Shown one piece after another: positions 10,348-37,639 of a stretch of 44,314 bases of DNA. Under the pieces are notes generated by a model. That model saw only the letters and a program-made list of their open reading frames with translations. It ran no database searches and was not told the origin of the DNA. The DNA is taken from assembly GCA_902777125.1 (NCBI GenBank), contig CACYSQ010000017.1:1-44314 (forward strand). Direction: 5' to 3'. The DNA comes from Ruminococcus flavefaciens. GTDB taxonomy: Bacteria; Bacillota; Clostridia; Oscillospirales; Ruminococcaceae. Both the position numbers and the translations under genes were made by a program. The number at the start of each line of letters is the position of its first letter. Within the stretch, counting starts at the first letter, position 1.

Positions 10348-10468
10348 ATTGAGAATTCAGAATGGAGAATGGAGAATTATGGTATCGCCTTACAGCGAAA
10401 TATTTGAAGCTGTCTGCGCAATCAGACACATTCATTATCAATTCTGCATTCTCAATTCTCAATTCTGA
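10348..10468. repeat. MITE-like element, copy A (TTAC/loop2 family)
   Basis: Inverted ends of about 33 bases (10348-10380 and 10434-10466, made of GAGAAT/ATTCTC units) enclose two hairpins. The first is TCGC..GCGA around loop TTAC at 10385-10398 with one C-A mismatch. The second is GTCTG..CAGAC at 10412-10427. It lies in the predicted leader of the MBOAT mRNA. Copies B, C and D are at 25661, 37528 and 32167. Confidence 0.85.
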
Positions 10469-10535
10469 GACCGCTCTTTCTTTTGTTCCTGAAAATCATA
10501 CAAACCAACGTTCCTAAAAATGAACGTACATATCT

Positions 10536-10564
10536 ATTTTACACGAAATTTCCCGGAATGTCAA
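10536..10564 (-). promoter_or_regulatory. Promoter of the MBOAT-SGNH operon
   Basis: Minus strand: TTGACA at 10564-10559, 17-base spacer, TAAAAT at 10541-10536. Predicted start near 10529, giving a leader of about 230 bases that contains repeat copy A. The spacer begins with TTCCGGGAAAT, which recurs in the cellulase promoter. The rest of the 10299-10776 gap holds a weak hairpin (ACGTTC/GAACGT, about 10509-10527) and a palindrome CTTCCGGAAG at 10648-10657. Confidence 0.75.
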
Positions 10565-10688
10565 CAATTTTGCGGTTTTCAGCAAATTTGTACCAATAAG
10601 TGCAATAGCAGCCTTCCCACAGGCAAAAAACTGTACAAAAGCGCTATCTTCCGGAAGGAACTATGCTCCGTTTTCCTATAAAAAGGTC

Positions 10689-10717
10689 TTGACAATCCGG
10701 GAAATAGATGATACAAT
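10689..10717 (+). promoter_or_regulatory. Promoter of the cellulase gene
   Basis: TTGACA at 10689-10694, 17-base spacer, TACAAT at 10712-10717. Predicted start near 10724, leader about 50 bases. The spacer begins ATCCGGGAAAT, sharing TCCGGGAAAT with the divergent promoter at 10564. Confidence 0.8.
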
Positions 10718-10776
10718 AAGTATAACTATAGGTGTGCAGAAATAATAACGCGCACCGATGAGAGGGGAAAATTATT

Positions 10777-12690
10777 ATGAAAAATTTTATGAGAAAGGCT
10801 GCGGCTTTCGTCTCCGCCGGCGCTATGGCGCTCACCGGAGTTCCGTCTGTCGTATGCACTGACCCGAACATCACAGCTTTCGCTGTCGATGACTGCAACG
10901 ACGACTGGCTCCACTGCGAGGGCAGCCGTATCTACGACATGAACGGCAATGAGGTATGGCTCACAGGCGCTAACTGGTTCGGCTTCAACTGCTCCGAGCG
11001 CTGCGCACATTATCTGTGGAGCGGAGACTGCGACGATATGCTGCGCGAGGTAGCGGACAGAGGTATAAACGTCATTCGCCTGCCCATATCCACTGAGCTG
11101 CTGTATGAATGGCAGAACGGTCTCGATAAGCCTGTTTCCGGCGGCGGACTTCAGGCTTCTTACAATCCTCCGACGGATCAGGTCGGTGAGGACGGCAAGG
11201 TCACAAAGGCTGGTACCTACGGCAGCATCAACAAGGACTTCGTTGAGGCTGACGGCAAGACTAACGTTACTTCACAGAAGGCTTTCGAGATAATCCTTGC
11301 AAAGTGCAAGCATTACGGTATCAAGGTGTTTGTAGACGTTCACAGTCCTCATGCTGACAACTCGGGACATATCTACAACTTGTGGTACGGCAAGGAAATG
11401 AACAACAACCCTGTAATGGTCACTACAGATATATGGATGGACACTCTTGTATGGATGGCTGATCAGTACAAGAATGATGACACTCTTCTCGGCTTCGACC
11501 TTCAGAACGAGCCCCACGGCAAGGGACCTGAGGGAAAGCTTGCGGCAAAGTGGGACGGTTCCACCGACGAGAACAACTGGGCATATGCCGCTACAAAGTG
11601 CGCTGATGCTATCCTCGACGTGAACCCCAATGCACTCATATTCATCGAGGGCGTTGAGCAGTCGCTCAGCGGTGCTCAGCCAGGCGACTACTGGGGCATT
11701 GCTGACCGCCGTGACGACTCTCCGTACATCGGTGCATGGTGGGGCGGAAACTTCCGCGGTGCGAGAGAGTATCCCATCACTCCCAAGCACGGCACAAGCC
11801 AGATAGTTTACTCACCGCATGACTACGGTCCGTCTGTTTATGCACAGACATGGTTCGAAAAGGATTTCAATGAGCAGACACTTCTTGATGACTACTGGTA
11901 TGATACATGGGCTTATATCAACGCTGAGGACATCGCTCCCGAGCTCATCGGTGAGTGGGGCGGTTACATGGACGGCGCCGAGAACCAGAAGTGGATGGAG
12001 CTCCTTAGCCAGTATATGATAAAGCATCACATCAACCACACCTTCTGGTGTCTTAACACCAATTCCGGTGATACACGCGGACTCTGGGCACAGTTCTCCT
12101 ACAACCTGAATGACGTTACCGATAAATCAAATGGTACTACTATCACTTGGGAAGAAGATAAGTACGCGCTCTTCGAGACAACGCTCTGGCAGACTGCAAC
12201 TACCGGAAAGTACATCGGTCTTGACCATCAGACACCGCTCGGCATCAACGGTACGGGTCTCTCACTCAACGAGTTCTACACAAGCTATGCCAATACCGAG
12301 GGAAGCAACCTCGACGGCGGCAAGAAGGGCAACGGTCAGCCTGTTATCATCGACGGCAGCACTACTACCACTACCAAGGCCACTACAGTTACTACTACCA
12401 CAACTACCGTTACAACTTCGACTACCGACAAGCCCACAGGCGATGACGATATCAAATGGGGCGATGCAAACTGCGACGACGATGTAAATATGGCTGACGC
12501 TGTACTCATCATGCAGTCCATAAACAATCCCGACAAGTACGGTGAGGGCAAGCCGGACGGCATTTCATCTACCGGCGTAAAGAATGCTGACGTTTTCAAT
12601 ACAGGCGACGGCATCACCAACAAGGACGCTCTTGCTATACAGAAATACAAGCTCGGTATCATAGGCGAGCTCCCGGAGAAACAATCATAA
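10777..12690 (+). CDS. GH5 cellulase (subfamily 1-like) with type I dockerin
   Basis: 637-residue secreted endoglucanase. A signal peptide (about 1-37, with a Lys/Arg start and hydrophobic core) leads to a GH5 catalytic domain of about 480 residues. The acid/base is E245 in QNEPHG and the nucleophile E393 in IGEWGG. Blocks GANWFGFNC, WWGGNFRGAREYP, VYSPHDYGPSVYAQTWF and NSGDTRGLW resemble GH5 subfamily 1 cellulases such as Acidothermus E1. A Thr-rich linker (about 525-550) joins a C-terminal dockerin (about 562-630) with two calcium-loop segments (GDANCDDDVNMADAVLIMQ and the NTGDGITNKDALAIQKYKLG repeat). The dockerin means the enzyme is meant to bind a cohesin in a cellulosome. It acts outside the cell on cellulose or related beta-glucans. 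No cohesin or scaffoldin gene is in the window. The gene is a single unit between its own promoter and terminator. Confidence 0.96.
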   Translation: MKNFMRKAAAFVSAGAMALTGVPSVVCTDPNITAFAVDDCNDDWLHCEGSRIYDMNGNEVWLTGANWFGFNCSERCAHYLWSGDCDDMLREVADRGINVIRLPISTELLYEWQNGLDKPVSGGGLQASYNPPTDQVGEDGKVTKAGTYGSINKDFVEADGKTNVTSQKAFEIILAKCKHYGIKVFVDVHSPHADNSGHIYNLWYGKEMNNNPVMVTTDIWMDTLVWMADQYKNDDTLLGFDLQNEPHGKGPEGKLAAKWDGSTDENNWAYAATKCADAILDVNPNALIFIEGVEQSLSGAQPGDYWGIADRRDDSPYIGAWWGGNFRGAREYPITPKHGTSQIVYSPHDYGPSVYAQTWFEKDFNEQTLLDDYWYDTWAYINAEDIAPELIGEWGGYMDGAENQKWMELLSQYMIKHHINHTFWCLNTNSGDTRGLWAQFSYNLNDVTDKSNGTTITWEEDKYALFETTLWQTATTGKYIGLDHQTPLGINGTGLSLNEFYTSYANTEGSNLDGGKKGNGQPVIIDGSTTTTTKATTVTTTTTTVTTSTTDKPTGDDDIKWGDANCDDDVNMADAVLIMQSINNPDKYGEGKPDGISSTGVKNADVFNTGDGITNKDALAIQKYKLGIIGELPEKQS

Positions 12691-12695
12691 CACCT

Positions 12696-12721
12696 AAGGC
12701 GGACTTCGTGTCCGCCTTTTT
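12696..12721 (+). terminator. Terminator of the cellulase gene
   Basis: 9-bp stem AAGGCGGAC (12696-12704) with GTCCGCCTT (12710-12718), loop TTCGT, ending in TTTTT. Confidence 0.92.
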
Positions 12722-12797
12722 GGTTGTCAGCTCATGCGTCCGGACCGTCCTCCCCGGACACGGCAATGAAAAAGTGCTGGTAATTTTAATGTGTATG

Positions 12798-12806
12798 TGG
12801 TATAAT
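12798..12806 (+). promoter_or_regulatory. Extended -10 promoter for uvrA
   Basis: TGGTATAAT at 12798-12806 is a full extended -10. No good -35 is seen 16-18 bases upstream. No LexA box of the Bacillus type (CGAAC-N4-GTTCG) was found between it and uvrA. Confidence 0.55.
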
Positions 12807-12875
12807 AATAATGTTATGGTGAACGTCGATTTTTTCATTCACTATCAGCAAATTATAAAAGTGCAGGTATGAATT

Positions 12876-15698
12876 ATGACTGATAAAATAATTATAAAGG
12901 GCGCAAGAGCCAACAACCTCAAAAATATCGACCTCGAACTCCCGCGTGACAAGCTCATCGTCATGACAGGTCTCTCCGGCTCGGGAAAATCCTCCCTTGC
13001 CTTTGATACCATTTACGCTGACGGTCAGAGACGCTATGTCGAGAGCCTTTCCTCCTATGCGAGAATGTTCCTCGGACAAATGGAAAAGCCCGATGTTGAC
13101 AGCATCGAGGGGCTCTCCCCTGCCATATCCATTGACCAGAAGACCACCTCCAAGAACCCGCGTTCGACCGTCGGAACTGTCACCGAGATATACGATTACC
13201 TCCGACTTCTCTACGCGAGGATAGGTGTTCCGCACTGTCCGGTCTGCGGAAGGGTCATCTCCCAGCAGAGCATCGACCAGATAGTCGATACGATAATGGC
13301 TCTCCCGGAAGGCACAAGAGTACAGCTCCTTGCACCTATCGTCCGCAACAGGAAGGGGCAGTACACAAAGGAGCTCGAAAGCGCTGCGAGGTCAGGCTTT
13401 GTCCGCGTCCGCATCGACGGCATAATGTATGAGCTTGCCGAGGAGATAAAGCTCGACAAGAACAAAAAGCACAACATCGAGATAGTAGTAGACCGCATCA
13501 TCATCAAGCCCGGTATCGAGTCCCGCGTTACCGACAGTCTCGAGACCATTTTCCGGCTCACGGAGGGACTTGCCCTCGTCAACGTCATTGACGGCGAGGA
13601 TATGCTCTTTTCGCAGAATTACGCCTGTCCCGAGCACAACATCAGCATCGGCGAGCTCGAACCGGTAATGTTCTCCTTCAACAACCCTGTCGGTGCCTGT
13701 CCGAAGTGTACGGGTCTGGGCGTTTTCCGCCACATCGACCCCGATATGGTCGTCCCGAACAAGGACCTCTCCGTTATCGAGGGAGCAATCAGCGCTCCCG
13801 GCTGGAACAGCCTCGATGATACCTCCATAGCGATGATGTACTACAGGGCTATATCGGAAAAGTACGGCATACCGCTCGATGTTCCGGTGAAAAAGCTGAA
13901 AAAGGAGCAGCTTGACATCTTCCTCTACGGCACCGGCACTGAGGCGCTTGAACTGAGACGTCCCCTCACTCTCGGCGGAGGCACCTACCGTTCCCCCTTC
14001 GAGGGCGTTATCAACAACCTCGAACGCCGCTACAAGGAGACCAACAGTGACTGGTCGAGGAACGACATCGAGGAGCTCATGAGCGAGGTGGAGTGTCCCT
14101 CCTGCCACGGGAAAAGGCTGCGCGACGAGTATCTCGCGGTAACGGTCGGCGATAAGAACATCAGCGACCTCACGGACTTCTCCGTCCGGGACGCCCTCAC
14201 CTTTTTCAGGGAGATAAAGCTCTCAAAGCAGGAGAGCTTCATCGGTGAACGCATAATCAAGGAGATACGCGAACGTTTAGGCTTCCTAAGCAGCGTGGGA
14301 CTGGAGTACCTCACCCTCTCGCGTTCCTCCGGTACTCTCTCAGGCGGCGAGAGCCAGCGCATTCGCCTTGCCACACAGATAGGCTCATCGCTCGTGGGAG
14401 TTCTCTATATCCTCGATGAGCCGAGCATAGGTCTCCACCAGCGGGACAACGACAAGCTCATCGCTACCCTGAAACGTCTCCGCGACCTCGGAAATACCCT
14501 CATTGTGGTCGAGCACGATGACGACACCATGCTTGCGGCTGATTACATCGTGGACATTGGTCCCGGGGCAGGCATACACGGCGGAGAGGTAGTTTTTGCC
14601 GGCACCGTTGACAAGCTGCTCAAGTGCAAGGCCTCCATAACCGGTCAGTACCTCAGCGGACGGAAAAAGATCCCCCTCCCGGACAAGCACCGCGACGGGA
14701 ACGGCAGGCTCCTCACTGTCAGGGGGGCTTCCGAGCACAACCTCAAAAATATCGACGTTGATATACCTCTCGGAAAGTTCATCTGCGTCACAGGCGTTTC
14801 CGGTTCGGGAAAATCCAGCCTCGTGAACGAGATAATCTACAAGAACCTCGCCGCAAAGCTCAACCGTGCAAAGACCCGTCCCGGAAAATTCGCGGACATG
14901 GAGGGCATCGAAGCTCTCGACAAGGTCATCTGCATAGACCAGTCCCCTATCGGCAGAACGCCGCGCTCAAATCCCGCGACCTATACCGGCGTTTTCAGCG
15001 ATATACGCGAGCTTTTCGCAAAAACTCCCGATGCTAAGGCAAGGGGATATTCCGCCGGAAGATTTTCCTTCAACGTGAGAGGCGGACGCTGTGAGGCCTG
15101 CGAGGGCGACGGCATCATCAAGATAGAAATGCACTTCCTCCCGGATATCTACGTTCCCTGCGAGGTCTGCAAGGGCAAGCGCTACAACCGCGAAACGCTC
15201 GAGGTACACTACAAGGGCAAGTCCATTTACGACGTACTCGAAATGACCGTTGACGAGGGCGTGGAGTTCTTCGCGCATATCCCGAGGATAGCAAAGAAGC
15301 TGAAGACATTGCAGGACGTAGGTCTTGGCTATATCAGGATAGGTCAGCCTGCGACTACCCTCTCGGGCGGCGAGGCTCAGCGTGTCAAGCTCTCGACCGA
15401 GCTCTCCAAACGCGCTACCGGCAGGACTATCTATATCCTCGATGAGCCGACCACGGGTCTCCACACAGCCGATGTCCACAGGCTCATACAGGTTTTGCAG
15501 GAGCTCACCGATCAGGGCAATACGGTCCTCGTCATCGAGCACAACCTCAACGTGATAAAGGTCGCCGACCATATCATCGACCTCGGTCCCGAGGGCGGAG
15601 ACGGCGGCGGTACTGTCGTTGCCGAGGGAACTCCCGAGGAGGTCGCGGAGTGTCCGCAGTCCTACACCGGAAAGTACCTCAAGCCATACCTGAAATAA
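12876..15698 (+). CDS. uvrA: Excinuclease ABC subunit A
   Basis: 940-residue UvrA, the damage-recognition ATPase of nucleotide excision repair. Two ABC ATPase halves are visible: Walker [15 protein letters not shown] (about 32-45) and [14 protein letters not shown], and signatures [14 protein letters not shown] and [18 protein letters not shown]. Each is followed by [12 protein letters not shown] or [12 protein letters not shown]. Zinc-binding Cys pairs occur in the insertion domains ([15 protein letters not shown], and CEACEGDG with CEVCKGKRY). Length is normal. The ATG at 12876 has only a weak ribosome site (GCAGG). In many Firmicutes uvrA and uvrB are adjacent. Here uvrB follows only after a 1.5-kb block holding a restriction-modification pair. 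No terminator is obvious after the stop at 15698. Confidence 0.98.
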
Positions 15699-15747
15699 TG
15701 CTGTTATCCATGAACCGCTATCACCAGCTCAGAAGCTTATTAGCTGA

Positions 15748-15777
15748 TTGACAAATACAGCTGAAATGTGCTATAAT
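15748..15777 (+). promoter_or_regulatory. Promoter of the restriction-modification pair
   Basis: TTGACA at 15748-15753, 18-base spacer, TATAAT at 15772-15777 preceded by TGC (extended -10). AGCTGA occurs at 15742, 15759 and 15816 and CGCTGA at 15793, flanking and overlapping the promoter, which could be operator half-sites. Confidence 0.8.
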
Positions 15778-15846
15778 TACTCATAGCTTCTTCGCTGATT
15801 ACTTAATTGGAAATTAGCTGAAAAGTATGAGATTGAGGTGTTTATA

Positions 15847-16494
15847 ATGTTACCTATACCCGAGGACTTAAATTGTAAATATGAATTTCATAATTATGGT
15901 CATGCTCTGGAAATCCTCTCTGATGCTTTTACAACAGAATGGGAGGAAGTACAGGATTGCCTCAGAAAACTGACGATCTCAGTTGATGATCTCAAAAAAG
16001 CAGGCGGAAACGAGAGCCCCATACCCAAAAAATTTGATGACGTACTGTATCCGTATGGTTGGCGCGAAATTCGTATAACAGGCGATCTTCTCATCAAGAT
16101 GTATCCACGGCAAAACGCCCAGCGAAGAGGTCGGTTTTCCAATGAGGCTTTTGAGGAGAAATTGATCGGAGGCTACATTGACGGTCATAATATTGATTTT
16201 TTGAAAAATAAAGTCGCATTTGACCTTGAATGGAATAGTAAAGATCAGACGTTTGACCGTGATTTGCTGGCGATGCGGACATATTTTGACTGCGGTATTA
16301 TTGATGTCGGTATAATTGTTACAAGATCAGAGGAACTGAACGAAATATTCAAGAAGATTGATATTATTTCAAAATATGGCGCTTCAACCACATGGATGGG
16401 GAAGCTGACATATAGACTGGATTCAAGAAGAAACGGCGGCTGCCCTATATTGGCTGTCGGGATAAAGAAATCTTGTATAGAGGGTTACGAATAA
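15847..16494 (+). CDS. BglII-like type II restriction endonuclease
   Basis: 215-residue protein resembling the BglII family of type II restriction enzymes. The recognised region is YIDGHNIDFLKNKVAFDLEWNSKDQTFDRDLLAMR (about 112-146), where D and E residues around the beta strand (FDLEWNSKDQ) would bind metal, followed by GIIDVGIIVTRSEELNEIF and YGASTTWMGKL. The ATG at 15847 follows GAGGTG by 7 bases; a GTG at 15838 is too close to that site. The stop overlaps the methylase start (TAATG), so the two are translationally coupled. Visible codon use is AT-rich compared with uvrA and uvrB, suggesting recent arrival. The target sequence cannot be read from the protein. AGATCT and GGATCC both occur several times in the window, so neither site is avoided. 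Confidence 0.85.
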   Translation: MLPIPEDLNCKYEFHNYGHALEILSDAFTTEWEEVQDCLRKLTISVDDLKKAGGNESPIPKKFDDVLYPYGWREIRITGDLLIKMYPRQNAQRRGRFSNEAFEEKLIGGYIDGHNIDFLKNKVAFDLEWNSKDQTFDRDLLAMRTYFDCGIIDVGIIVTRSEELNEIFKKIDIISKYGASTTWMGKLTYRLDSRRNGGCPILAVGIKKSCIEGYE

Positions 16495-17135: not shown

Positions 17136-17166
17136 CTCTTATTCAAGCAAGTATGTTCACTGAATG

Positions 17167-17198
17167 AATAGCACGGAATAGCAGCTCCGTGCTATTTT
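17167..17198 (+). terminator. Terminator of the restriction-modification operon
   Basis: 11-bp stem (17167-17176 region AATAGCACGGA with TCCGTGCTATT at 17186-17196), loop of about 8 bases, ending in TTTT. Confidence 0.85.
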
Positions 17199-17227
17199 CC
17201 ATATTTGAAATCTGCCTCTTTTTTCCA

Positions 17228-19229: not shown

Positions 19230-19311
19230 TTGGGAACGCCGGGTCTTGGCGTTCCTAAAGTTGAGAATTGAGAATTGAGAGTTGAGAGTAGGGGCGGATA
19301 TTATCCGCCCG
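19227..19311. repeat. Composite of palindromic modules and GAGAATT half-end
   Basis: A hairpin GGAACGCC (19233-19240) with GGCGTTCC (19248-19255) is followed by GAGAATTGAGAATTGAGA-like sequence (19261-19287). A GTAGGGG module at 19288-19311 follows (stem 19292-19300 with 19302-19310). That module is identical over 24 bases to the one at 22386-22409. Sequence CTATGCACTAATAACTATGA at 19318-19337 resembles the ends of the element at 39379. Confidence 0.85.
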
Positions 19312-20624: not shown

Positions 20625-20698
20625 GTAGGGGCGGCGTTCCGCCGCCCGTGTGCTTTGTACTATTCTTGTATAAGCGGGCGCCGGAACGGCGCCCCTAC
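20625..20698. repeat. Two palindromic modules in inverted orientation
   Basis: Module one at 20625-20648 starts GTAGGGG (stem GGGCGGCG with CGCCGCCC, loop TTC). Module two at 20675-20698 ends CCCCTAC (stem GGGCGCCG with CGGCGCCC, loop GAA). The two are near mirror images, so the 74 bases can also fold as one long stem. Confidence 0.88.
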
Positions 20699-22333: not shown

Positions 22334-22486
22334 GGAACGGCGTCCCCGACGTCCCGCACCTTACGTTGCAACGTTACCCCAAACCGTAGGGGCGGATATT
22401 ATCCGCCCGGGCAATACAATATAACAGACCCGATACGTTCCGCACCGGTGGTTCGTTATCCGCGGGCGAACGATGTTCGCCCCTAC
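22330..22486. repeat. Palindromic module cluster between DUF5662 gene and polA
   Basis: Degenerate module at 22330-22354 (GTAGGGAACGGCG...GACGTCCC). Perfect module at 22386-22409 (GTAGGGGCGGATA...). Module at 22463-22486 (stem GGGCGAAC with GTTCGCCC, loop GAT) ending CCCCTAC. The cluster starts with GTAGGG and ends with CCCTAC. The rest of the gap shows only the polA ribosome site. Confidence 0.85.
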
Positions 22487-25063: not shown

Positions 25064-25224
25064 GTAGGGAACGCCGCCCTCGGCGTTCCTATGCAGCTGT
25101 AATATACGACCGAGGTGACAGCCGAGACCCGCCGTTCCCTACAGTCGAATATGCGGGCGGATGATATCCGCCCCTACACTATCAACTATCAACTCTCAAC
25201 TCATAGGGGCGCCGTTCCCTACAG
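25064..25224. repeat. Palindromic module cluster between polA and rimI
   Basis: Module at 25064-25092 (GTAGGG start, stem GGAACGCCG with CGGCGTTCC, loop CCCT). Degenerate copy ending CCCTAC at about 25112-25143. Module at 25153-25177 (stem GGGCGGAT with ATCCGCCC, loop GAT) ending CCCCTAC. Partial copy at 25203-25224 ending CCCTAC six bases before the rimI ATG. Confidence 0.82.
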
Positions 25225-25229
25225 AAAGT

Positions 25230-25673
25230 ATGAAAATCATATCAGAATTCACAAACGAAATATTCGAGAAAATGTCCGCGCTCGACAAGGAGTGCGTCGG
25301 GACTGAGGGCTGGTCTGCTGCAAGCTTCCGCGAACAGTCGCAGTCCACAGGAGGCATCGTGCTTGCCGCTTACTGCGGAGACGAGCTTGCCGGACTTATC
25401 GCAGGCTTTACCGCCTCCGACACCGGCGAGATACTGACGCTTTCAGTTGCCCCTCAGTACCGCAGGCAGGGCATTGCCCGGAAGCTCATGGAGGCTTTCC
25501 TTGCTGAAGTCCCCGGAGATACCGAGAACATCGCACTCGAGGTCAGGCAGTCCAACACGGCTGCGATAAGCCTCTACGAAAGCTTCGGCTTTGAGAAAGC
25601 AGGCGTCCGCAAACGCTTTTACTCCGACCCCGAGGAGGACGCGGCAGTCATGATCAAAAAATTGAGAATGTAG
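25230..25673 (+). CDS. rimI: RimI-like GNAT N-acetyltransferase
   Basis: 147 residues with the GNAT fold. The acetyl-CoA loop is YRRQGIARKLM (about 77-87), preceded by LTLSVAPQYR, with late motif NTAAISLYESFGFEKAGVRKRFY typical of RimI, which acetylates the N-terminus of ribosomal protein S18. Length fits the family. The ATG at 25230 starts where the family starts. It has no good ribosome site because a palindromic repeat ends only a few bases upstream. The last codons (KLRM and TAG) come from the GAGAATG end of repeat copy B. It does not neighbour tsaB/tsaD here, so the rimI symbol is by similarity only; another GNAT substrate is possible. Confidence 0.85.
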   Translation: MKIISEFTNEIFEKMSALDKECVGTEGWSAASFREQSQSTGGIVLAAYCGDELAGLIAGFTASDTGEILTLSVAPQYRRQGIARKLMEAFLAEVPGDTENIALEVRQSNTAAISLYESFGFEKAGVRKRFYSDPEEDAAVMIKKLRM

Positions 25674-25763
25674 AATGGAGAATTGAGAATTATGGTATTG
25701 CTTACGCGATACTATTAAGATCCGTCTGCGTCAGCAGACACATTCATTCTCAATTCTCAATTC
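25661..25763. repeat. MITE-like element, copy B
   Basis: Ends GAGAATG.../...CATTCTCAATTCTCAATTC enclose hairpin 1 (GTATTGC 25695-25701, loop TTAC, GCGATAC 25706-25712) and hairpin 2 (GTCTGC 25724-25729, loop GTCA, GCAGAC 25734-25739). The left end overlaps the last codons of rimI. Confidence 0.9.
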
Positions 25764-30810: not shown

Positions 30811-30899
30811 TTTTTTCCACAATGGTATAAAAATGTCCGGAAGCATAGCTGCTTCCGGATTTTTTTGTGTGCGTGAGCATTATACCATTGTGGGAAAAA
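30811..30899. repeat. 89-bp element with inverted ends around a terminator hairpin
   Basis: Ends at 30811-30830 and 30880-30899 are inverted copies of CCACAATGGTATAA with flanking T/A runs (one small difference). Each end contains an inward-facing TGGTATAA, like an extended -10. The centre is the terminator at 30836-30866. The remainder of the 352-base gap 30702-31053 holds the hairpins listed here and nothing that looks coding. Confidence 0.8.
30836..30866 (+). terminator. Terminator of the ymfF-folD operon
   Basis: 10-bp stem TCCGGAAGCA (30836-30845) with TGCTTCCGGA (30850-30859), loop TAGC, then seven T. On the minus strand it is followed by CATTTTT and may also serve the aldolase gene. 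Confidence 0.9.
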
Positions 30900-30924
30900 C
30901 CATAATAAAGTCTTTGGAAAGGGG

Positions 30925-30960
30925 CTGGGGAAAATCTTTCCTCAGAAAAGTTTTCCCCAG
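30925..30960. other. Long hairpin of unknown role
   Basis: CTGGGGAAAA (30925-30934) pairs exactly with TTTTCCCCAG (30951-30960); the loop can extend the stem with CTTT/AAAG. There is no T-run on either strand directly after it. It lies downstream of the aldolase stop and may protect the 3' end of that mRNA. Confidence 0.6.
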
Positions 30961-31053
30961 TAAGTTCTCATAAAACTGCCATATATGTATCGCAGTAAAA
31001 GCGTCCCTATTATGTAAAATCGGTATATTTAACGAGCCAATCCGGCTCATAGG

Positions 31054-32028
31054 TCAGTCCTGGGCGAGTATCTCCTTATAGAACTCAGCATAGTCCTTTC
31101 TGCCGTCCTTAGTGAACTGGATAGCAGTTCTGGGGTGCTGATTGAGGAGACCGGTCATGAGGTACTGGAGGTCATAGCCCCAAACAACGCCTTCCTCGCG
31201 GAGCTTGGTCATGTGCTCCTCGATGAACTGGAGAACGGGGTAAACGTTATACTTAGGATTCTTCAGGAAGCCGAGGAGGAGCTCCATTGCACAGTTTCCG
31301 GCACCGCGTCCCATTGAGGAATAAGTAGCATCGAGCCAGTCAACGCCGTCGCCGACAGCCTCGATAGTGTTAGCGAATGCGAGCTTCTGATTATCGTGAG
31401 CGTGAATACCGACCTTCTTGCCGTACTTGTCAGCCATTTCGCAGTAGAGGTTAGCGATACGCGCCATCTGCTCGGGGTAGATCGAGCCGAAGCTGTCAAC
31501 GATATAGAAAACGTCAACGGGCGATTTACCGAGGATATCGAGTGCGACCTTGAGATCGCTCTCCTGAGCTGTTGAGATAGCCATGATATTGCAGCTTACC
31601 TCGTAGCCCTTCTTCTTGGCGTCCACGATCATGTCAACGGCAGTGGGTATCTGGTGGAGGTATGTAGCAACTCTTACGAGGTCGACCGGGCTCTCTGCGC
31701 GGTCATGGATATCCCTCTTGTAGTTGCAGCGTCCGACGTCAGCCATAACAGCGATCTTGAGATCGGTATTGTTCTCGCCGACAACGGAACGGATATAGTC
31801 ATCATCGCAGAACTTGCAAGGACCGAACTTGTTCTCATCGAAGAGCTCGCGGTCGCCCTTGTAGCCGAATTCCATGTAGTCAACGCCTGCACGGAGGTTT
31901 GCATTATAGAGGTGCTTTACGAATTCATCGGTGAAGAAGAAGTCATTGACGAGGCCTCCGTCGCGGAGAGTAGCGTCAACGACCTTGATATCAGGTCTGT
32001 AATCGAGAAGCTTTGAAATTTCTTTCAT
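31054..32028 (-). CDS. DRE-TIM (HMGL-like) aldolase-family protein
   Basis: 324-residue TIM-barrel protein of the DRE-TIM metallolyase family, which includes HMG-CoA lyase, isopropylmalate synthase and 4-hydroxy-2-oxovalerate aldolase. The metal-binding DATLRDGG is at about 19-26 and HAHDN at about 205-209, with the barrel strands MEFGYKGDRELF, IVDSFGSIYPEQM and DATYSSMGRGAGN between and after. Similar single-domain proteins are often called aldolase catalytic-domain proteins in gut Clostridia and Bacteroidetes; the substrate is not known. No synthase allosteric domain is present. The ATG at 32028 has AAAGGAT upstream. A consensus promoter lies at 32108-32136 and an inverted repeat in the leader (32056-32084) may be a regulatory site. 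It stands alone, downstream of but separate from the phe operon. Confidence 0.88.
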   Translation of the reverse strand: MKEISKLLDYRPDIKVVDATLRDGGLVNDFFFTDEFVKHLYNANLRAGVDYMEFGYKGDRELFDENKFGPCKFCDDDYIRSVVGENNTDLKIAVMADVGRCNYKRDIHDRAESPVDLVRVATYLHQIPTAVDMIVDAKKKGYEVSCNIMAISTAQESDLKVALDILGKSPVDVFYIVDSFGSIYPEQMARIANLYCEMADKYGKKVGIHAHDNQKLAFANTIEAVGDGVDWLDATYSSMGRGAGNCAMELLLGFLKNPKYNVYPVLQFIEEHMTKLREEGVVWGYDLQYLMTGLLNQHPRTAIQFTKDGRKDYAEFYKEILAQD

Positions 32029-32055
32029 ATTATCTATCCTTTCAGGCTTTATAGT

Positions 32056-32084
32056 TTTAAAGCTTTATACTGTAACGCTTTAAA
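32056..32084 (-). promoter_or_regulatory. Inverted repeat in the aldolase leader
   Basis: TTTAAAGC (32056-32063) and GCTTTAAA (32077-32084) are exact inverted copies 13 bases apart, between the promoter and the ribosome site. They may be an operator or an mRNA hairpin. Confidence 0.55.
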
Positions 32085-32107
32085 GTGGTTTTCTGTCAAC
32101 GTATAAT

Positions 32108-32136
32108 ATTATATCACCGGCTGTCGGGTTTGTCAA
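32108..32136 (-). promoter_or_regulatory. Promoter of the aldolase gene
   Basis: Minus strand: TTGACA at 32136-32131, 17-base spacer, TATAAT at 32113-32108 preceded by TGA. All 12 core positions match consensus. Predicted start near 32101. Confidence 0.88.
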
Positions 32137-32166
32137 TACCTTTTTTTAAAAAAATAGGAATTAGTT

Positions 32167-32284
32167 TGAGTTGAGAGTTGAGGTGTCCGCTTACGCGGAC
32201 GGATTTAAAATATATCGCCGTCAGGCGATACATTAACTCTCCACTCTCAACTTGTTTGACAATGCGGATAATATCCGTCCCTAC
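32167..32284. repeat. MITE-like element, copy D, plus a GTAGGG module
   Basis: Ends GAGTTGAGAGTTGAG (from 32168) and CTCTCCACTCTCAAC (to 32252) enclose hairpin 1 (GTCCGC 32185-32190, loop TTAC, GCGGAC) and hairpin 2 (TATCGCC 32213-32219, loop GTCA, GGCGATA), both perfectly paired. A short palindromic module follows at 32264-32284, ending CCCTAC. That end supplies the stop codon of the small membrane protein gene. Confidence 0.9.
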
Positions 32285-32454
32285 TTCGATGCCGCTATCC
32301 TGTAGAGCACATAGATGCCAGCGGCGGTGAGAAGGAACAGCGCTCCCCAGATGAGAGCGCGTTTCCTGTCCTTTTTACCGATACCGGCAGTGCAGTTGTA
32401 AATACAAATCAGCATGAACAGAACTATCAGCTTGCTGATTATCTGCGAGAGCAC
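32281..32454 (-). CDS. 57-residue two-helix membrane protein
   Basis: Small predicted membrane protein not resembling a family I know. It starts with GTG at 32454, four bases after the pheT stop, with GAGAGG about 8 bases upstream inside the end of pheT. The protein has one hydrophobic segment near residues 5-21 (IISKLIVLFMLICIYNC), a basic loop (GKKDRKRA), a second hydrophobic segment (LIWGALFLLTAAGIYVLY) and a short end. The loop charge suggests both ends face outward. The stop TAG is part of GTAGGG of the adjoining repeat, so the C-terminus may have been reset by repeat insertion. It would be the last gene of the T-box-controlled phe operon. Short length makes chance possible, but the hairpin-membrane layout and ribosome site support it. 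Confidence 0.65.
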   Translation of the reverse strand: MLSQIISKLIVLFMLICIYNCTAGIGKKDRKRALIWGALFLLTAAGIYVLYRIAASK

Positions 32455-32458
32455 GGGC

Positions 32459-34915
32459 TCAGCCTCTCAGCTCCGCACCGATAGCGTTCAGCGCCTTGAT
32501 AACGCGCTTCATAGCGCCGTCAGCCTGTTCGTCAGTGAGAGTACCCTCATGCGAGCGCATGGAGATAGAGTAAGCGATGCTCTTTTTGCCGTTCTTCTTC
32601 ATGTCGTCGCTGCGGTAAACGTCAAAGAGGGTGACCTTTTCGAGTATCTTTCCGACAGCGCCCTTGATAGCCTTTTCGAGAGCTGCGGCAGGAGTCTCCT
32701 CGTCGCACACAAGGCTGATATCACGGGTAGTTGCCGGGAATTTCGGGAGCGGCTGGTAGGTTATCTCGCCGGAGGCTGCTGCCATGAGCTCAGGGATATT
32801 GAGCTTGAGGACGTATGTCTTCACGCCGATGCCGTAGGTCTCCTGAACCTCCGGGTGAACCTCGCCGAGGATACCGAGAGGAGTGCCGTCCCTGAGAATA
32901 ACAGCGCTTCTGCCGGGGTGGAGAGCGCACTTCTCATCGAAAGCGTCGCTGTCGGCAGCGCGTACATAGTCAACATCGTCGATCTTGAGCTCGGCAAGGA
33001 GCTGCTCGGCAATGCCCTTGATAGTGTAGAAATCGGCATCTCCGCCGTACATACCGACAGTAAGTCTCTGCGGCTCGTCCGGGAGAGAATACTCATACCT
33101 GTGCTTCTTATTGCCGCTGTTTGCGAGGGTATCGCCGTTGATGAAGGGCTTCTCCTCCTTAGCGGGGAGGTACTCCTTTGCTATCTCGAACAGGCAGGCT
33201 TTCTCGTTGCGGTTGTTGTAGTTGAACGCGAGCACATCGAGCATCGAAGGTATCGTGGAGGTACGCATAACGCTGGTGTCCTCGCCGAGAGGATTAACGA
33301 TGCGGACTACCTTGCGGAGAGCGCTGTCCTCGGGGAGACGTATCCTGTCGAAATACTTGGGTGAAACGAACGAATATGTGGCTATCTCGTAGCCTCCGAG
33401 GGAAACGGCAGCGTTCCTGAGAGTGCGGACGAACTTCTGCTCCTCTGTAAACTCAGCTCTTGCAACTCCGCGGAAATCGGTGGAGGGGATATTGTTGTAG
33501 CCGTAGATACGGGCGACCTCCTCCGCGATATCAGCCTTGCAGCCGATGTCGATACGGAATGACGGAGCAACGACCTTGTCGCCTGAGAACGTGAATTCAA
33601 GACGGCTGAGGTACTCCTTCATGTCAGCCTCGGAGATGTCCGTACCGAGGAAACTGTTTATCCACTTGGGATCGAAAACGACCTCGGAGGGCTTGAAGCC
33701 GGACTTGTTGCAGTCGATGACGGTGTTTACGACCTCGCCTGCTCCCAGAAGCTCAACGAGCTCGAATGCCCTTTTCAGACAGGTCATGGAGATAGTCGGG
33801 TCAACGCCCTTTTCGTAACGTGCGGAGGCGTCGGACTTCAGACCGAGCTTCTTGGAGGTCTGACGTACCTGCGAGGGCTCGAAGTAAGCGGACTCGAACA
33901 CAACAGTAGTGGTATCGTCCATGATACCGCTGTACTCGCCGCCCATAACGCCTGCAACGGCAACGGGCTTCTTCTCGTCAGCGATAACGAGCATATCGGA
34001 AGTGAGCTCACGCTCAACGCCGTCGAGGGTCATTATCTTCTCGCCGTTCTGAGCATTGCGGACGTTTATGTGAGCGCCCTCAACGTAGCGGAGGTCGAAA
34101 GCGTGCATGGGCTGACCGTATTCGAGCATGACGTAGTTTGTGATATCAACGAAATTGTTTATCGGACGGACGCCGCTTGCACGGAGCCTCTCCCTCATCC
34201 AGCGGGGTGAGGGACCTATCTTGACGTTCTTAACGATACCGGCACAGTAGCGCGGACACTTCTCCGCATTGTGGATATCGACCTTGAGATAGCTGTTGAC
34301 ATCGCCGTCAACGCCCTTGAACTCCGGAGCTTTAACTTTCAGCTCAGTGCCGTAGGTAGCGGCAGTCTCCCTTGCGAGACCGATAACGCTGAGACAGTCG
34401 GGACGGTTCGAGGTTATCTCGAACTCAACGGAGGTGTCGTCCAGACCGATAGCCTTGTGGATATCGTCACCGGGCTTGCAGTCCTCCTCGATAACGAAAA
34501 CGCCCTCGGGATCGGCATAGGGGAAATCGTGAGCGGTAAGGCCGAGAGTGTCTATGCCGCAGAACATACCGAAACTCTCAACGCCGCGCATCTTGCACTT
34601 CTTGATCTTGCCCTCGGGGAGAACAGCGCCGTCGAGTGCAACGGGAACGAGGTCGCCCTCCTTGACGTTCTTGGCGTTGGTGACGATCTGAATGGGAGCC
34701 TCAGCGCCGACGTCGACCTGACAAACGAACAGTGCATCGGCATTTTCGTGGGGACCCTTTGAGAGTATCCTTCCCACAACAACATTTGAAACATTGCTGC
34801 CCTCAGCCTCGTAGCATTCCACCTTGGAACCGCTCATCGTAAGAGCGTGGCAGTAATCCTTTATCGGCATATCGGCTTTAACATAGTCGCCGAGCCATTT
34901 CATAGATAAATTCAT
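32459..34915 (-). CDS. pheT: Phenylalanyl-tRNA synthetase beta subunit
   Basis: 818 residues, usual for PheT. In order: N-terminal part and tRNA-binding EMAP domain (about 40-150, VGRILSKGPHENADALFVCQVDVG), B3/B4 editing domain region (EITSNRPDCLSVIGLARE and following), B5 domain, class II-like core, and the C-terminal FDX-ACB anticodon-binding domain (about 725-818, PLPKFPATTRDISLVCDEE). It works as alpha2-beta2 tetramer with PheS to charge tRNA-Phe and edits mischarged Tyr. AAAGGAAAA precedes the ATG at 34915. It is separated from pheS by a membrane-protein gene, and all are controlled by the T-box at 36599. Confidence 0.98.
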   Translation of the reverse strand: MNLSMKWLGDYVKADMPIKDYCHALTMSGSKVECYEAEGSNVSNVVVGRILSKGPHENADALFVCQVDVGAEAPIQIVTNAKNVKEGDLVPVALDGAVLPEGKIKKCKMRGVESFGMFCGIDTLGLTAHDFPYADPEGVFVIEEDCKPGDDIHKAIGLDDTSVEFEITSNRPDCLSVIGLARETAATYGTELKVKAPEFKGVDGDVNSYLKVDIHNAEKCPRYCAGIVKNVKIGPSPRWMRERLRASGVRPINNFVDITNYVMLEYGQPMHAFDLRYVEGAHINVRNAQNGEKIMTLDGVERELTSDMLVIADEKKPVAVAGVMGGEYSGIMDDTTTVVFESAYFEPSQVRQTSKKLGLKSDASARYEKGVDPTISMTCLKRAFELVELLGAGEVVNTVIDCNKSGFKPSEVVFDPKWINSFLGTDISEADMKEYLSRLEFTFSGDKVVAPSFRIDIGCKADIAEEVARIYGYNNIPSTDFRGVARAEFTEEQKFVRTLRNAAVSLGGYEIATYSFVSPKYFDRIRLPEDSALRKVVRIVNPLGEDTSVMRTSTIPSMLDVLAFNYNNRNEKACLFEIAKEYLPAKEEKPFINGDTLANSGNKKHRYEYSLPDEPQRLTVGMYGGDADFYTIKGIAEQLLAELKIDDVDYVRAADSDAFDEKCALHPGRSAVILRDGTPLGILGEVHPEVQETYGIGVKTYVLKLNIPELMAAASGEITYQPLPKFPATTRDISLVCDEETPAAALEKAIKGAVGKILEKVTLFDVYRSDDMKKNGKKSIAYSISMRSHEGTLTDEQADGAMKRVIKALNAIGAELRG

Positions 34916-34946
34916 ATCATTTTTCCTTTCGTATATTGTAATATCC

Positions 34947-35438
34947 TCAATATATCCTGTTGAACGGATCCCTTTTCACATTGTTTTTCAGGAATTCATT
35001 GATCTCCGCTGCCGTTTTATCCCTTTCAAAACTGCTGTTCACGAAAAGCTTATCAGAGCCTCCCGAGTACCTTATAAGTATCCCTCGCTTTGTAAGGCTG
35101 TTGTCACCGGAGTTTCCCGGCAGCATCGGAGAAACATCAAATATCTCCGAAGTACGGTAGTATTTCAGTGAGCTTTCATTCACCGTCCACTCCTCGGACA
35201 TATAGTATGATCCGTATTTGAACGGGCAGCTCTCCTTGAATATCCTGTAGTCAGTCTCGTCATCGAAGCCGAGACCTTTCATGATCCCGTTTTTCTTTGA
35301 ACGGTAGCAGAAATACGCTATCACACCGCATACAGCCAGAAACACGAACATTATCAATGCGGCTCTGGGCGAAAGACCTCCGCCGCGGCTGCGGTGACGG
35401 CGCATCAGTGACGCTGCTATTATAAAATAATCACTCAT
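34947..35438 (-). CDS. Small membrane protein inserted between pheS and pheT
   Basis: 163-residue protein of unknown function. A basic N-terminus (RRHRSRGGG) and one membrane helix (about 26-46, ALIMFVFLAVCGVIAYFCY) are followed by about 115 residues, probably cytoplasmic by the positive-inside rule being ambiguous here. That region (RSKKNGIMKGLGFDD, then WTVNESSLKYYRTSEIF, RGILIRYSGGSDKLFVNSS and TAAEINEFLKNN) reads like a small PH-like or YcxB-like domain, which is weak inference. It starts in the pheS stop codon (TGATG) and ends 31 bases before pheT, so it is clearly inside the operon. pheS and pheT are normally adjacent, so this is an insertion into a conserved pair. Confidence 0.82.
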   Translation of the reverse strand: MSDYFIIAASLMRRHRSRGGGLSPRAALIMFVFLAVCGVIAYFCYRSKKNGIMKGLGFDDETDYRIFKESCPFKYGSYYMSEEWTVNESSLKYYRTSEIFDVSPMLPGNSGDNSLTKRGILIRYSGGSDKLFVNSSFERDKTAAEINEFLKNNVKRDPFNRIY

Positions 35439-36466
35439 CAGAACTGCTCTAAGAAGCGCACATCGTTCTCATAGAGAAGACGGAGGTCATTGATGTCGTA
35501 GCGGCCCATTACCATACGCTCAAGACCGAGACCAAATGCAAATCCGGAGTATTCCTCGGGGTCGATACCGCAGTTTTCGAGCACCTTCGGGTGTACCATG
35601 CCGGCACCGAGAAGCTCGATGTAGCCCTCGTCCTTGCACATTGAGCAGCCCTTTCCGCCGCAGTTGAAGCAGCTTATATCCACCTCACAGCTCGGCTCAG
35701 TGAACGGGAAGTGATGAGGACGGAAACGGAGCTTGCAGTCATTGCCGTAGAGCTTCTTCATGAGCATTTCGAGAGTGCCCTTGAGGTCGGACATTGTGAT
35801 GCCCTTGTCGATAACGAGACCCTCTATCTGGTGGAAAAGAGGCGAATGAGTAGCGTCAACGGCGTCCGAACGGAAAACTCTGCCGGGAGAGATTATGCGT
35901 ATCGGAGGCTTCTGATTTTCCATAACGTGAACCTGTACGGACGAGGTCTGTGTACGGAGGAGGATAGTCTCCTTTGTATTCTCGATGTAGAAGGTATCCT
36001 GCGTATCTCTTGCAGGGTGGTCGGGCGGGAGGTTGAGAGCCTCGAAAACGTGGTAATCGTCGTCTATCTCGGGACCGTCCGCGATATTGAAGCCCATGCC
36101 GATGAATATCTCGCGTATCTCGTTCTCGACCCTTGTGAGGGGGTGAAGCTTGCCGAAGGGAGCGTGCTTGCCGGGGAGGGTAACGTCAATGGTCTCCTCC
36201 CTGAGCTTAGCGGACTGAGCCTCGGATTTGAGTGCATTGAGCTTGGAGGCGATAGCCTCCTCGATATCGGAGCGCACCTTGTTTGCGAGCTGACCGATAA
36301 CTGGTCTTTCCTCTGCGGAGAGGCCTCCCATCTGCTTCAGGATAGCGGTGAGTTCACCTTTTTTTCCGAGGAATTTTATCCTCAGATCGTCCAGTGCCTT
36401 GATCTCAGTGCAGGCAGCGAGCTCCTGCTTGGCGAGGACTTCGATTTTTTCAAGCTGTTCTTTCAT
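35438..36466 (-). CDS. pheS: Phenylalanyl-tRNA synthetase alpha subunit
   Basis: 342 residues, normal for PheS, the catalytic subunit. Class II motifs are visible: motif 1 region HPLTRVENEIREIFIGMGF (about 115-133), motif 2 LRTQTSSVQVHVME (about 177-190) with VFRSDAVDATHSPLFHQIEG, and motif 3 GFAFGLGLERMVM (about 310-322). The N-terminal coiled coil (about 1-90) binds tRNA. GAGGTG stands 7 bases before the ATG at 36466. The long leader contains a Phe T-box (36599-36900) and, between it and the start codon, a palindromic repeat. Expression should therefore rise when uncharged tRNA-Phe accumulates. Confidence 0.98.
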   Translation of the reverse strand: MKEQLEKIEVLAKQELAACTEIKALDDLRIKFLGKKGELTAILKQMGGLSAEERPVIGQLANKVRSDIEEAIASKLNALKSEAQSAKLREETIDVTLPGKHAPFGKLHPLTRVENEIREIFIGMGFNIADGPEIDDDYHVFEALNLPPDHPARDTQDTFYIENTKETILLRTQTSSVQVHVMENQKPPIRIISPGRVFRSDAVDATHSPLFHQIEGLVIDKGITMSDLKGTLEMLMKKLYGNDCKLRFRPHHFPFTEPSCEVDISCFNCGGKGCSMCKDEGYIELLGAGMVHPKVLENCGIDPEEYSGFAFGLGLERMVMGRYDINDLRLLYENDVRFLEQF

Positions 36467-36494
36467 TTTTTCACCTCATAGATTAGATGCGTTT

Positions 36495-36578
36495 GTAGGG
36501 GACGGCGTCCTCGACGTCCCACAATTCATATATTCGCTGCCTTGCGGCAGCCGGGCTGTCGAGGACGCCAGCCCCTAC
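36495..36578. repeat. Large palindromic module in the pheS leader
   Basis: The outer arms GTAGGGG (36495-36501) and GGCGTCCTCGAC (36504-36515) pair with GTCGAGGACGCC (36558-36569) and CCCCTAC (36572-36578). Inside is a hairpin GCTGCC/GGCAGC (36536-36551, loop TTGC). It sits between the T-box terminator and the pheS ribosome site. Confidence 0.88.
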
Positions 36579-36598
36579 AATAAAGTGTGTTGTGACGA

Positions 36599-36900
36599 CA
36601 AAAAAGTCCTGCCCTAAAGGACAAGACTTAAAAACCTTGCTATACCACCTTTGGTCAGGAGAGCCGACACTCTCTTGTCTTTAACGCAGACCTACGTCAG
36701 AGCCTACAATACCATACCGCACACTCTTCAAATCAGTCCGCATGAACGCATCATGCCTTCCGTCCGAAGGTGCCGCACCGGTACTTCCGTTCCACCCCTC
36801 GTGAGTGAACTTCGGAACGCTTTCAGACAGGACGTTCGCACCAAGCCGCCCCTCTCTGCAAGACCTAATCACATTCCTACTCTCTCAGTCAACGGGTTAT
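36599..36900 (-). ncRNA. T-box riboswitch of the pheS operon
   Basis: On the minus strand: a Stem I-like region from about 36900 with GAGAGGGG and GGTGCGAAC blocks (about 36862-36832). Then the T-box bulge region AAGGTGGTATAGCAAGG (36650-36634) that pairs with the tRNA end. Then a terminator, stem 36628-36619 with 36614-36605 (two G-T pairs), loop TTTA, six T. A TTC triplet (Phe codon) at 36809-36807 is placed where the specifier is expected. Charged tRNA-Phe gives termination; uncharged tRNA gives read-through. The T-box sequence departs from the usual GGTGGTACCGCG at the ACCGCG part. Confidence 0.88.
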
Positions 36901-36906
36901 AGGTCT

Positions 36907-36935
36907 ATTATAAACCACAGCTCAAAAAAAATCAA
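36907..36935 (-). promoter_or_regulatory. Promoter of the pheS operon
   Basis: Minus strand: TTGATT at 36935-36930, 17-base spacer, TATAAT at 36912-36907. Predicted start near 36900, at the beginning of the T-box. Confidence 0.82.
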
Positions 36936-36944
36936 GCCTTTTTC

Positions 36945-36973
36945 TTGAAATTCTTCAAAATTTGTGGTATTAT
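36945..36973 (+). promoter_or_regulatory. Promoter of the small membrane protein gene
   Basis: TTGAAA at 36945-36950, 17-base spacer, TATTAT at 36968-36973 preceded by TGG (extended -10). It is back to back with the phe promoter, only 9 bases apart. Confidence 0.72.
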
Positions 36974-37012
36974 ATATATTAGTGCATATCAAAACAGAAC
37001 GGAGTTATGAAA

Positions 37013-37534
37013 ATGGATAATTTTGCTGAACAGCTCGTCAAGAAAAATGAGACCTCTTCCGACAGGAACAAGCGTATCGTCATAGCTGTCTGCGGCATAC
37101 TCATCACTGTCGCTATGGTATTTGTATCGTTCATACAGCTCGATAAGCCCGTGATCGCATTTCTCGGCATGATACTCGCCGCCGCAACCGGATACGGTAC
37201 ATTTTTTCTCATTCAGGGCTCATATGTCGAGTACGAGTACACCTTCACAAACGGCGAGCTCGATATCGCAAAGATAATCGCAAAGAAAAAACGCATCGAG
37301 ATGCTCAGCACCGAGGTCAGGAGCTTCACTGATTTCGGAAAGTACAATGAGGACATGGAGGAGAGCGAGGACATGACCGTCGTTATCACTTCGGACAATA
37401 TCGCCTCCCACGAATACTATGCGGATTTCCAGCACGAGGAATACGGCAGGACACGGCTCGTTTTCGTGCCGAACGAGAAGATGCTCGAATTCATCGGAAG
37501 GTATCTTCCGGCAAAGCTCAGGGCTAAGAATTGA
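37013..37534 (+). CDS. DUF6106-like small membrane protein
   Basis: 173 residues. Two membrane helices (about 22-42, IVIAVCGILITVAMVFVSFI, and about 47-68) are followed by a cytoplasmic domain of about 105 residues (YVEYEYTFTNGELDIAKIIAKKKRIEML...). It resembles the DUF6106 family of Clostridia, a PH-like domain protein with no known job. The ATG at 37013 is chosen because GGAG (37001) is 8 bases away; the ATG at 37007 is too close. Its stop TGA (37532-37534) is formed by GAATTGAGAATG of repeat copy C, so the last residues may be repeat-derived. It is the first plus-strand gene after the divergent phe promoter, followed after the repeat by nnrD. Confidence 0.8.
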   Translation: MDNFAEQLVKKNETSSDRNKRIVIAVCGILITVAMVFVSFIQLDKPVIAFLGMILAAATGYGTFFLIQGSYVEYEYTFTNGELDIAKIIAKKKRIEMLSTEVRSFTDFGKYNEDMEESEDMTVVITSDNIASHEYYADFQHEEYGRTRLVFVPNEKMLEFIGRYLPAKLRAKN

Positions 37535-37639
37535 GAATGCAGAATGGAGAATGGAGAATTATTGTGTCGGCTTACGCCGATAAATTTAAAGATCATACCC
37601 GAAGGGCATACCTTCATTCTCAATTCTCAATTCTCAATT
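37528..37639. repeat. MITE-like element, copy C
   Basis: Ends GAATTGAGAATGCAGAATGG (37528 on) and TTCATTCTCAATTCTCAATT (to 37639) enclose hairpin 1 (TGTCGGC 37565-37571, loop TTAC, GCCGATA 37576-37582, one G-T pair) and hairpin 2 (ATACCC..GGGCAT, about 37595-37609, loop GAA). Hairpin 2 has diverged most from the other copies. The left end supplies the stop codon of the gene before it. Confidence 0.88.

Follow-up and report, generated by a model that had tools for sequence, protein, structure and literature searches.

Nested palindromes with copy-specific matched arms: a probable REPIN-like mobile DNA element in Ruminococcus flavefaciens

What kind of element keeps two hairpins through compensated changes of their stems is the question raised by four repeats in a 44,314-nucleotide stretch of Ruminococcus flavefaciens DNA (assembly GCA_902777125.1, contig CACYSQ010000017.1, positions 1 to 44,314; hereafter the window). 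We consider it rather probable that the repeats belong to a non-autonomous mobile DNA element resembling the REPINs, which are doublets of repetitive extragenic palindrome (REP) hairpins, and that this element is built of nested palindromes, carries matched arms specific to each copy and has a terminator-like residence in one genus.

An inverted hairpin doublet between matched arms

The architecture was derived from 19 cores of the window's own genome (G000, R. flavefaciens group), which were set in one direction by eye. For a window protein the best named relative is Ruminococcus sp. RGIG6695, at 88%. The element runs from a heptamer array through an A-hairpin, a spacer and a B-hairpin to an inverted heptamer array, and the consensus of the 19 cores, likewise read by eye, is GTATCGC(C), loop and (G)GCGATA for the A-hairpin, a spacer near TATTTnnGATCC, and GTCYGC, loop and GCRGACAC for the B-hairpin. 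The A-hairpin and the reverse complement of the B-hairpin have, again by eye, GTRTC..GC and a TKAC/TTC loop set in common, so that the core forms an inverted homologous doublet with a spacer; such a pair of related hairpins would act like a REPIN, and it sits in the loop of a longer stem formed by the inverted 7-bp repeats. An automatic alignment of all 19 misplaced two long-spacer cores; 15 short ones aligned well, and the search model (R1) was built from these 15 short-spacer cores of G000.

All four copies are present where the sequence-only reading had placed them, with inverted arms of the GAGAATT type and two inner hairpins. Model scores on both strands set the cores of copies A and B on the plus strand and those of C and D on the minus strand. 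Copy A (10348..10468, +) comprises all five parts and is matched by R1 at 10372-10437 (+, 68.8 bits); by sequence and fold, its A-hairpin TATCGC / CTTACA / GCGA lies at 10383..10399 (+) and its B-hairpin GTCTG / CGCAAT / CAGAC at 10412..10427 (+). Copy B (25661..25763, +; R1 match 25685-25749, +, 78.1 bits) has, on the same evidence, the A-hairpin GTATTGC TTAC GCGATAC at 25695..25712 (+) and the B-hairpin GTCTGC GTCA GCAGAC at 25724..25739 (+). Copy D (32167..32252, -) has its core at 32175-32241 on the minus strand, where R1 scores 85.6 bits vs 51.2 on the plus strand, and its minus-strand sequence contains the B-hairpin GTCCGC GTAA GCGGAC at 32185..32200 and the A-hairpin TATCGCC TGAC GGCGATA at 32213..32230. 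Copy C (37528..37639, -; core 37556-37621, minus strand, 67.6 bits vs 47.4 on the plus strand) carries, in minus-strand terms, a B-hairpin with loop GTAA at 37565..37582 (sequence and fold) and an A-hairpin with loop TTC and one mismatched pair at 37595..37609 (sequence). The folds of all four copies are stronger than those of shuffled sequence on both strands (z -4.9 to -9.4), and the 13-base double unit AGAATTGAGAATT has 22 matches in the window with at most two mismatches, vs 1.3 expected. Copy A lies between divergent genes and copy D between two minus-strand open frames. For copies B and C, earlier placed at gene ends, the preceding open frames stop inside the element: frame 25161-25673 ends at a stop codon within copy B and frame 37007-37534 terminates within copy C. 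TGA is present in the heptamer units. Effects on the host, such as stop codons, mRNA 3' ends and read-through, are likely by-products.

Setting the cores in one direction alters the picture of their loops. What the sequence-only reading had taken to be one and the same first hairpin is the A-hairpin in the two plus-strand copies; on the minus strand, in C and D, it is a B-hairpin read backwards. The TTAC of copies A and B is an A-loop, whereas C and D show TTAC as the complement of their B-loop, GTAA, which accounts for the impression of a shared TTAC. Read in one direction, the A-loops of copies A to D are CTTACA, TTAC, TTC and TGAC, and the B-loops CGCAAT (or GCAA), GTCA, GTAA and GTAA. The constant loops TTAC and GTCA dissolve across the 134 places collected below into a loose G-N(1-2)-A frame: 95 parsed A-hairpins show TGAC 22 times, TTAC 13, TGC 12, TTC 12, TGTC 6 and others, and 112 parsed B-hairpins GTCA 26, GTAA 20, GAA 17, GCAA 6 and others, counts from a parser that also admits some chance hairpins. 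Nor are the stems free within one genome, and the apparent contrast of constant loop and free stem arose largely because oppositely oriented copies, and with them A- and B-hairpins, were compared.

It is the arms that vary between copies. Within the genus the arrays consist of GAGAATT, GAGAGTT, AATAGTG, AGCCNTT, GGAATTC or CATAATG units, elsewhere of AAAGAAT, AACAATT, ACAGTGT or AAATAAG, and throughout the core stays alike; array length also varies. The left and right arm of each copy were compared with re-paired arms of the same genome in 20000 permutations, using 113 of the 134 places (dropped were those with a core length outside 60-100 or short flanks), of which 13 lie in genomes outside the five that were tested. 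Arms are matched within a copy and different between copies in four of these five genomes: the observed score was reached in 234 of the 20000 permutations in G000 (n=46), 14 in G008 (n=24), 1 in G017 (n=20) and 110 in G007 (n=6). Some copies, such as L011 and L209, have clearly unlike arms. The arms may stay alike because one is copied from the other, by fold-back synthesis or conversion. A classical miniature inverted-repeat transposable element (MITE), mobilised by a DDE transposase that binds GAGAATT terminal inverted repeats, would likewise be a dispersed, non-coding element of about 100 bp with inverted ends. Its ends, however, should not change from GAGAATT to AGCCNTT, GGAATTC, AATAGTG, AACAATT or ACAGTGT in arrays of varying length round the same core, and no autonomous relative was noticed, though no DDE transposase search was made; we regard this explanation as very improbable. 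The earlier remark that the repeat is unlike an ordinary MITE thus stands, for a different reason from the constant loop and free stem first given: the conserved part is internal while the ends vary.

Variants of the parts were also seen. By eye, heptamer units in several genomes often seem constant at five positions and variable at two adjacent ones (AGAATnn, TTAGCnn, GGAATnn, GAATAnn). Long cores, L002, L014 and L019 among them, represent a long-spacer form (cores of about 91 nt), some with a GCTGCCGG-like inner stretch, and this form is perhaps ancestral. At L017, L183, L191, L195 and L198, and at L187, L190, L196 and L199, the B-hairpin is joined to a left partner other than an A-hairpin, a shared stretch like CATAGTTAACATTGCGGCGGCTTTCTTTGATCC or a GTAGGGGCG palindrome, which suggests that halves of the element are exchangeable.

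Distribution, compensatory change and strand

A covariance-type search found the family in the window's own genome, in congeners and in other genera. G000 has at least 86 model matches at E <= 1, with 150 of 1531 candidates scored and overlapping and both-strand matches counted in this total; the stretches retrieved from it hold 78 matches at E <= 1e-3, of which 54 distinct places were kept, and 80 places in other genomes bring the set to 134. When the stems were judged by a strict rule, both hairpins were present at 28 of the 54 places and at 38 of the 80; of the remaining G000 places, 11 had A alone, 13 B alone and two neither. Among 30 genomes (own genome included, E <= 1e-4, 150 candidates scored per genome, both-strand duplicates counted) 11 are carriers, with 0 to 60 matches per genome and a patchy spread among congeners, from none to dozens. 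Among 148 genomes of the family, scanned with the own genome included at E <= 1e-5 and with stricter filters, there are five carriers (G000, G044, G064, G142 and G165). Single matches occur in two other families of the order (G022, G027). Three exact patterns gave no match in viral contigs, where inexact copies were not sought.

The compensated stem changes that had been noticed in four copies recur in 62 distinct sequences. For this comparison five genera contributed 63 short-spacer cores, 62 of them distinct, mostly higher-scoring and drawn from the 134 places and later loci; they were aligned by sequence alone. The three-stem structure pairs in 91.3% of the cells, a share biased upward because the rows had been found with a structure model, and 14 of its 17 pairs show a double change. 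Cells changed on both sides number 122 vs 31.1 (standard deviation 4.8) in shuffles, none of 500 of which reached 122, although related rows make these counts something other than independent events; both qualifications tell against our reading. Controls with slid partners gave 11 to 25 double-changed cells. The innermost heptamer pairs covary as well, with GC, AU, UA and CG at columns 4/76. The 15 G000 cores alone give a smaller signal, of 9 double-changed cells vs 3.0 (0/500) and 4 pairs vs 1.9 (34/500).

The loops of the 62 aligned rows follow a rule of their own. As C-G-N(1-2)-A-G, closing pair included, it describes 51 of the 62 B-loops, and 45 of the 62 A-loops are G-N(1-2)-A on the opposite strand, where the closing pair was not demanded. 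GNRA loops are stable in RNA. In DNA, according to PMC6479982, GNA loops give stable mini-hairpins that contain a sheared G-A pair, and for this reason the loop rule favours neither nucleic acid.

For the gene context, genes were picked by codon score rather than from annotation, and because the training set was 21 long open reading frames of the window, the calls in G142, a genome of genus g125 (3.6 Mb, 2 contigs), are less sure. Of the 54 places in G000, 44 lie between tandem genes, 4 between convergent and 3 between divergent ones, and 3 at a locus edge. Between tandem genes, the core has the direction of the genes at 20 places in G000 and the opposite direction at 24; the same count is 6:10 in G008 and 5:1 in G142, for a three-genome total of 31 same and 35 opposite. 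This lack of orientation bias argues against a strand-specific RNA; the total replaces an earlier, cruder count of 27:25, in which an antisense frame had been taken at L271. Rfam covariance models gave no match at gathering score in the whole window.

These results bear on the possibility that the repeat is a structured RNA, trans-acting or carried in mRNA, such as a small RNA, an attenuator or an mRNA stabiliser. Strong covariation, stable folds and mostly intergenic places near genes would suit it, as would the wobble pairs of the A stem, which favour one strand (38 GT to 6 AC in the 62 rows). However, wobble pairs are strandless in the B stem (14:15) and run 6:18 in the arms, both strands fold well, dozens of matches in one species contrast with none in several congeners, and near-identical copies are dispersed in G142; together with the 31:35 orientation and the lack of an Rfam match, this makes a structured RNA an unlikely explanation. 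The sequence-only reading had offered structured RNA or hairpins read as single-stranded DNA. That the hairpins are kept by compensatory change holds, and, judging from sequence, we lean to DNA because of the missing orientation bias, the missing Rfam match, the patchy copy number among congeners and the near-identical dispersed copies in g125. A separate wobble count by parser over the 134 places favoured GT through its own scoring and was not used.

Outer hairpins in genus g125

In G142, copies L272, L273, L274 and L284 agree at 95-99% of positions along 245-252 bp; their ends are sharp and their surroundings unrelated. L270 and L271 are 87-97% identical to them over 199-214 bp before diverging abruptly. 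In the g125 unit of about 210-330 bp, an outer hairpin stands at either end, with a heptamer array next to each and the A- and B-hairpins in the middle. In seven bounded units of G142 (212-278 bp) the unique outer flanks tend to be complementary to each other, with a mean of 22.3 for own pairs vs 14.9 for others, a value reached in 4 of 5040 exact permutations. A parser applied to 64 locus names, some overlapping, in G142 and four congeners gave 13 units, five of which also belong to the set of seven; over all 13, including L347, which was judged false, flank complementarity is 23.6 vs 16.9, and 0 of 20000 permutations reached the observed mean. Ten of the 12 accepted units are followed by a run of five T or preceded by one of five A, vs 5147 among 24000 random placements in the same loci. 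A T-run of this kind is typical of intrinsic terminators. The gene preceding L271, which resembles a D-3-phosphoglycerate dehydrogenase gene, could be compared in five of six other g125 species (L289-L293), and each of these has a plain hairpin and no element downstream of it, four of the five with a T-run. In some g125 copies (L328-L331, L335) an A- or B-loop contains a further long hairpin.

Palindromes would thus lie within palindromes: heptamer stems enclose the core hairpins and, in g125, are themselves enclosed by what appear to be terminator stems, with further hairpins in some A- or B-loops there. The hairpins may be recognised as folded single-stranded DNA by an HUH- or ribonucleoprotein-type enzyme acting in trans, and hairpin loops, in g125 those of terminators, may be the insertion target. 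A broader proposal, that the repeats stand for a class of mobile DNA which targets the loops of existing hairpins and has its arms written by fold-back copying, is put forward tentatively, as a possibility with the odds against it.

Enzymes, related repeats and neighbouring palindromes

Could the element be a strict REP/REPIN, moved by the RAYT (TnpA-REP) that the same genomes encode? The inverted hairpin doublet would fit. A RAYT protein query of the 30 near genomes, fragments included, was positive in 10, namely 8 of 11 carriers and 2 of 19 non-carriers, and the element lies near a RAYT gene in G000 (about 0.9 kb), G017 (1.6 kb) and G064 (<=1.5 kb). Against this stand the lack of a GTAG tag, the GTAGGGG-type REPs that these RAYTs carry rather than A/B hairpins, three carriers without this RAYT, and the absence of the element from most of the scanned RAYT loci, of which only L240, L222 and L251 gave matches; RAYT mobilisation in this strict form therefore seems improbable. 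In G000 one RAYT-like gene lies at L031 on contig C15, with a Pfam match below cut-off and 45.7 bits to NCBIfam REP_Tyr_transpos (cut-off 80), and a second on C6. The PF01797 model had first suggested no link to RAYT, and it misses the G008 RAYT that the protein query finds. As an obligate partner RAYT was rejected, the link seen by protein query in 30 genomes not being borne out in 148. Y1_Tnp (PF01797) had no match in G008, G165, G044, G178 and G179, the last two only 72% and 76% complete, and neither the IS200-type Y1 nor reverse transcriptase was retained as a partner, carriers being tracked by neither. In G182 both are present, and no match to the g125 unit was found at E <= 1e-8, with 40 of 55 candidates scored and the A-B model not run.

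Like the REPINs and bacterial interspersed mosaic elements described in PMC3116915, which are thought to move as single-stranded DNA, the element has inverted related hairpins, a less conserved spacer, compensatory changes and intergenic places; unlike them, it has no GTAG tag and no RAYT common to all carriers, and its doublet is enclosed by inverted heptamer arrays that are alike within a copy and different between copies. With the GTAG and CGTC REP families, as presented in PMC3733652, it shares palindromes of 20-40 bp, variable complementary stems, dimers and, in some cases, the lack of a dedicated transposase, but it has neither tag as an unpaired foot. The tetranucleotide before the A stem is ATGG in 16 of the 62 rows, AAGG in 11, AATG in 8, GTGG in 7, GCGG in 5 and GTAG in 0. 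A CGTC REP has, in the same paper, an unpaired CGTC at one end, an 8-9-bp stem beginning AT and a tail CCA; here the GTC of the B-hairpin lies within the stem and pairs with GAC. As both tags are missing, we do not file the element as a REP; the words "Firmicutes" and "Clostridi-" do not appear in the main text of PMC3733652. Group IIC introns likewise integrate at a folded DNA stem-loop (PMC10190682), but they code for a ribozyme and a maturase and enter next to the stem-loop, whereas the element is small and non-coding and appears inside the stem. No description of the A-B element was found in the open-licence literature searched, judged mostly from listings. Cyanobacterial small dispersed repeats, reportedly treated by Elhai and colleagues in 2008, are said to be very small structured repeats that lie within tandem heptamers and show compensatory mutations; those of Nostoc are reportedly single units of 21-27 nt and are not known to have matched inverted arms of heptamers or to nest in terminators.

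Several results weigh against a REPIN-like mobile element with matched arms. The arm match is not significant in G004 (n=4; 4199 of 20000 permutations), and about half of the kept places are incomplete. Terminator nesting is shown for genus g125 only and is not seen in the window's own genome; in G142 the own flank pair is the best of its row in five of seven units, the exceptions being L269 and L271, and L271 is both a poor flank match and the unit used for the empty-site comparison. A cruder outer-flank test found nothing in G000, G008, G017, G007, G165 or G142, the blank in G142 being due to outer hairpins common to the copies, which swamp the signal. Neither a target-site duplication nor an empty site at strain level was seen, no close strain pair being at hand; the few relatives with both flanks of a window copy, L033 (B, D) and L068 and L104 (C), lack the element and are too diverged to show its ends. 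Assignment of a strand from wobble pairs was abandoned, the signal being mixed. A GTAG foot is absent, and GTAG or CTAC occurs anywhere in 5 of the 62 rows. Finally, none of the enzymes tested for co-occurrence (RAYT, Y1, reverse transcriptase) tracks the element: RAYT is present in 12 of the 148 family genomes and in 2 of the 5 carriers (G000 and G064), the RAYT of this clade is absent from the element-bearing G142, G165 and G044, and reverse transcriptase gave no match in G008 and G044.

If the REPIN-like reading is correct, rumen Clostridia would harbour REPIN-like elements without the GTAG tag and with a separate, copy-specific arm system, and hairpin loops, those of transcription terminators included, could be tested directly as insertion targets. 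It would also explain intergenic hairpins that look like conserved RNAs with compensatory changes while the constraint may act on DNA.

Other palindromes accompany the element and the RAYT genes. Six GTAGGGGCG-type palindromes of the window, found by repeat scan at 7897-7919, 20676-20698, 22464-22486, 25155-25177, 42982-43004 and 43031-43053, have matched variable stems as in GTAG-type REPs, and some lie beside heptamer arrays. The same scan places a one-sided GAGAATT heptamer array without an A-B core, which is not a copy, beside a GTAGGGGCG palindrome at 19257..19287 (+). Ruminococcus RAYT genes, and one from another family of the order (G022), contain an inverted pair of GTAGGGG-type REP hairpins inside the gene (L031:1258-1881, L241, L174, L176, L178/L242, L179/L246, L245 and L248, the last in a broken gene), at conserved places around the HUH motif marked by VGAxxxRP and GRxxxAPTIS; no description of such pairs was found in the literature searched, as judged from the listing. 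The variable stem is the same in both internal REPs in seven of eight genes with a visible pair, L031 being one base off and L241 the exception. At its right end the window carries a tandem repeat of period 48 (44173-44314), whose copies are 98% identical.

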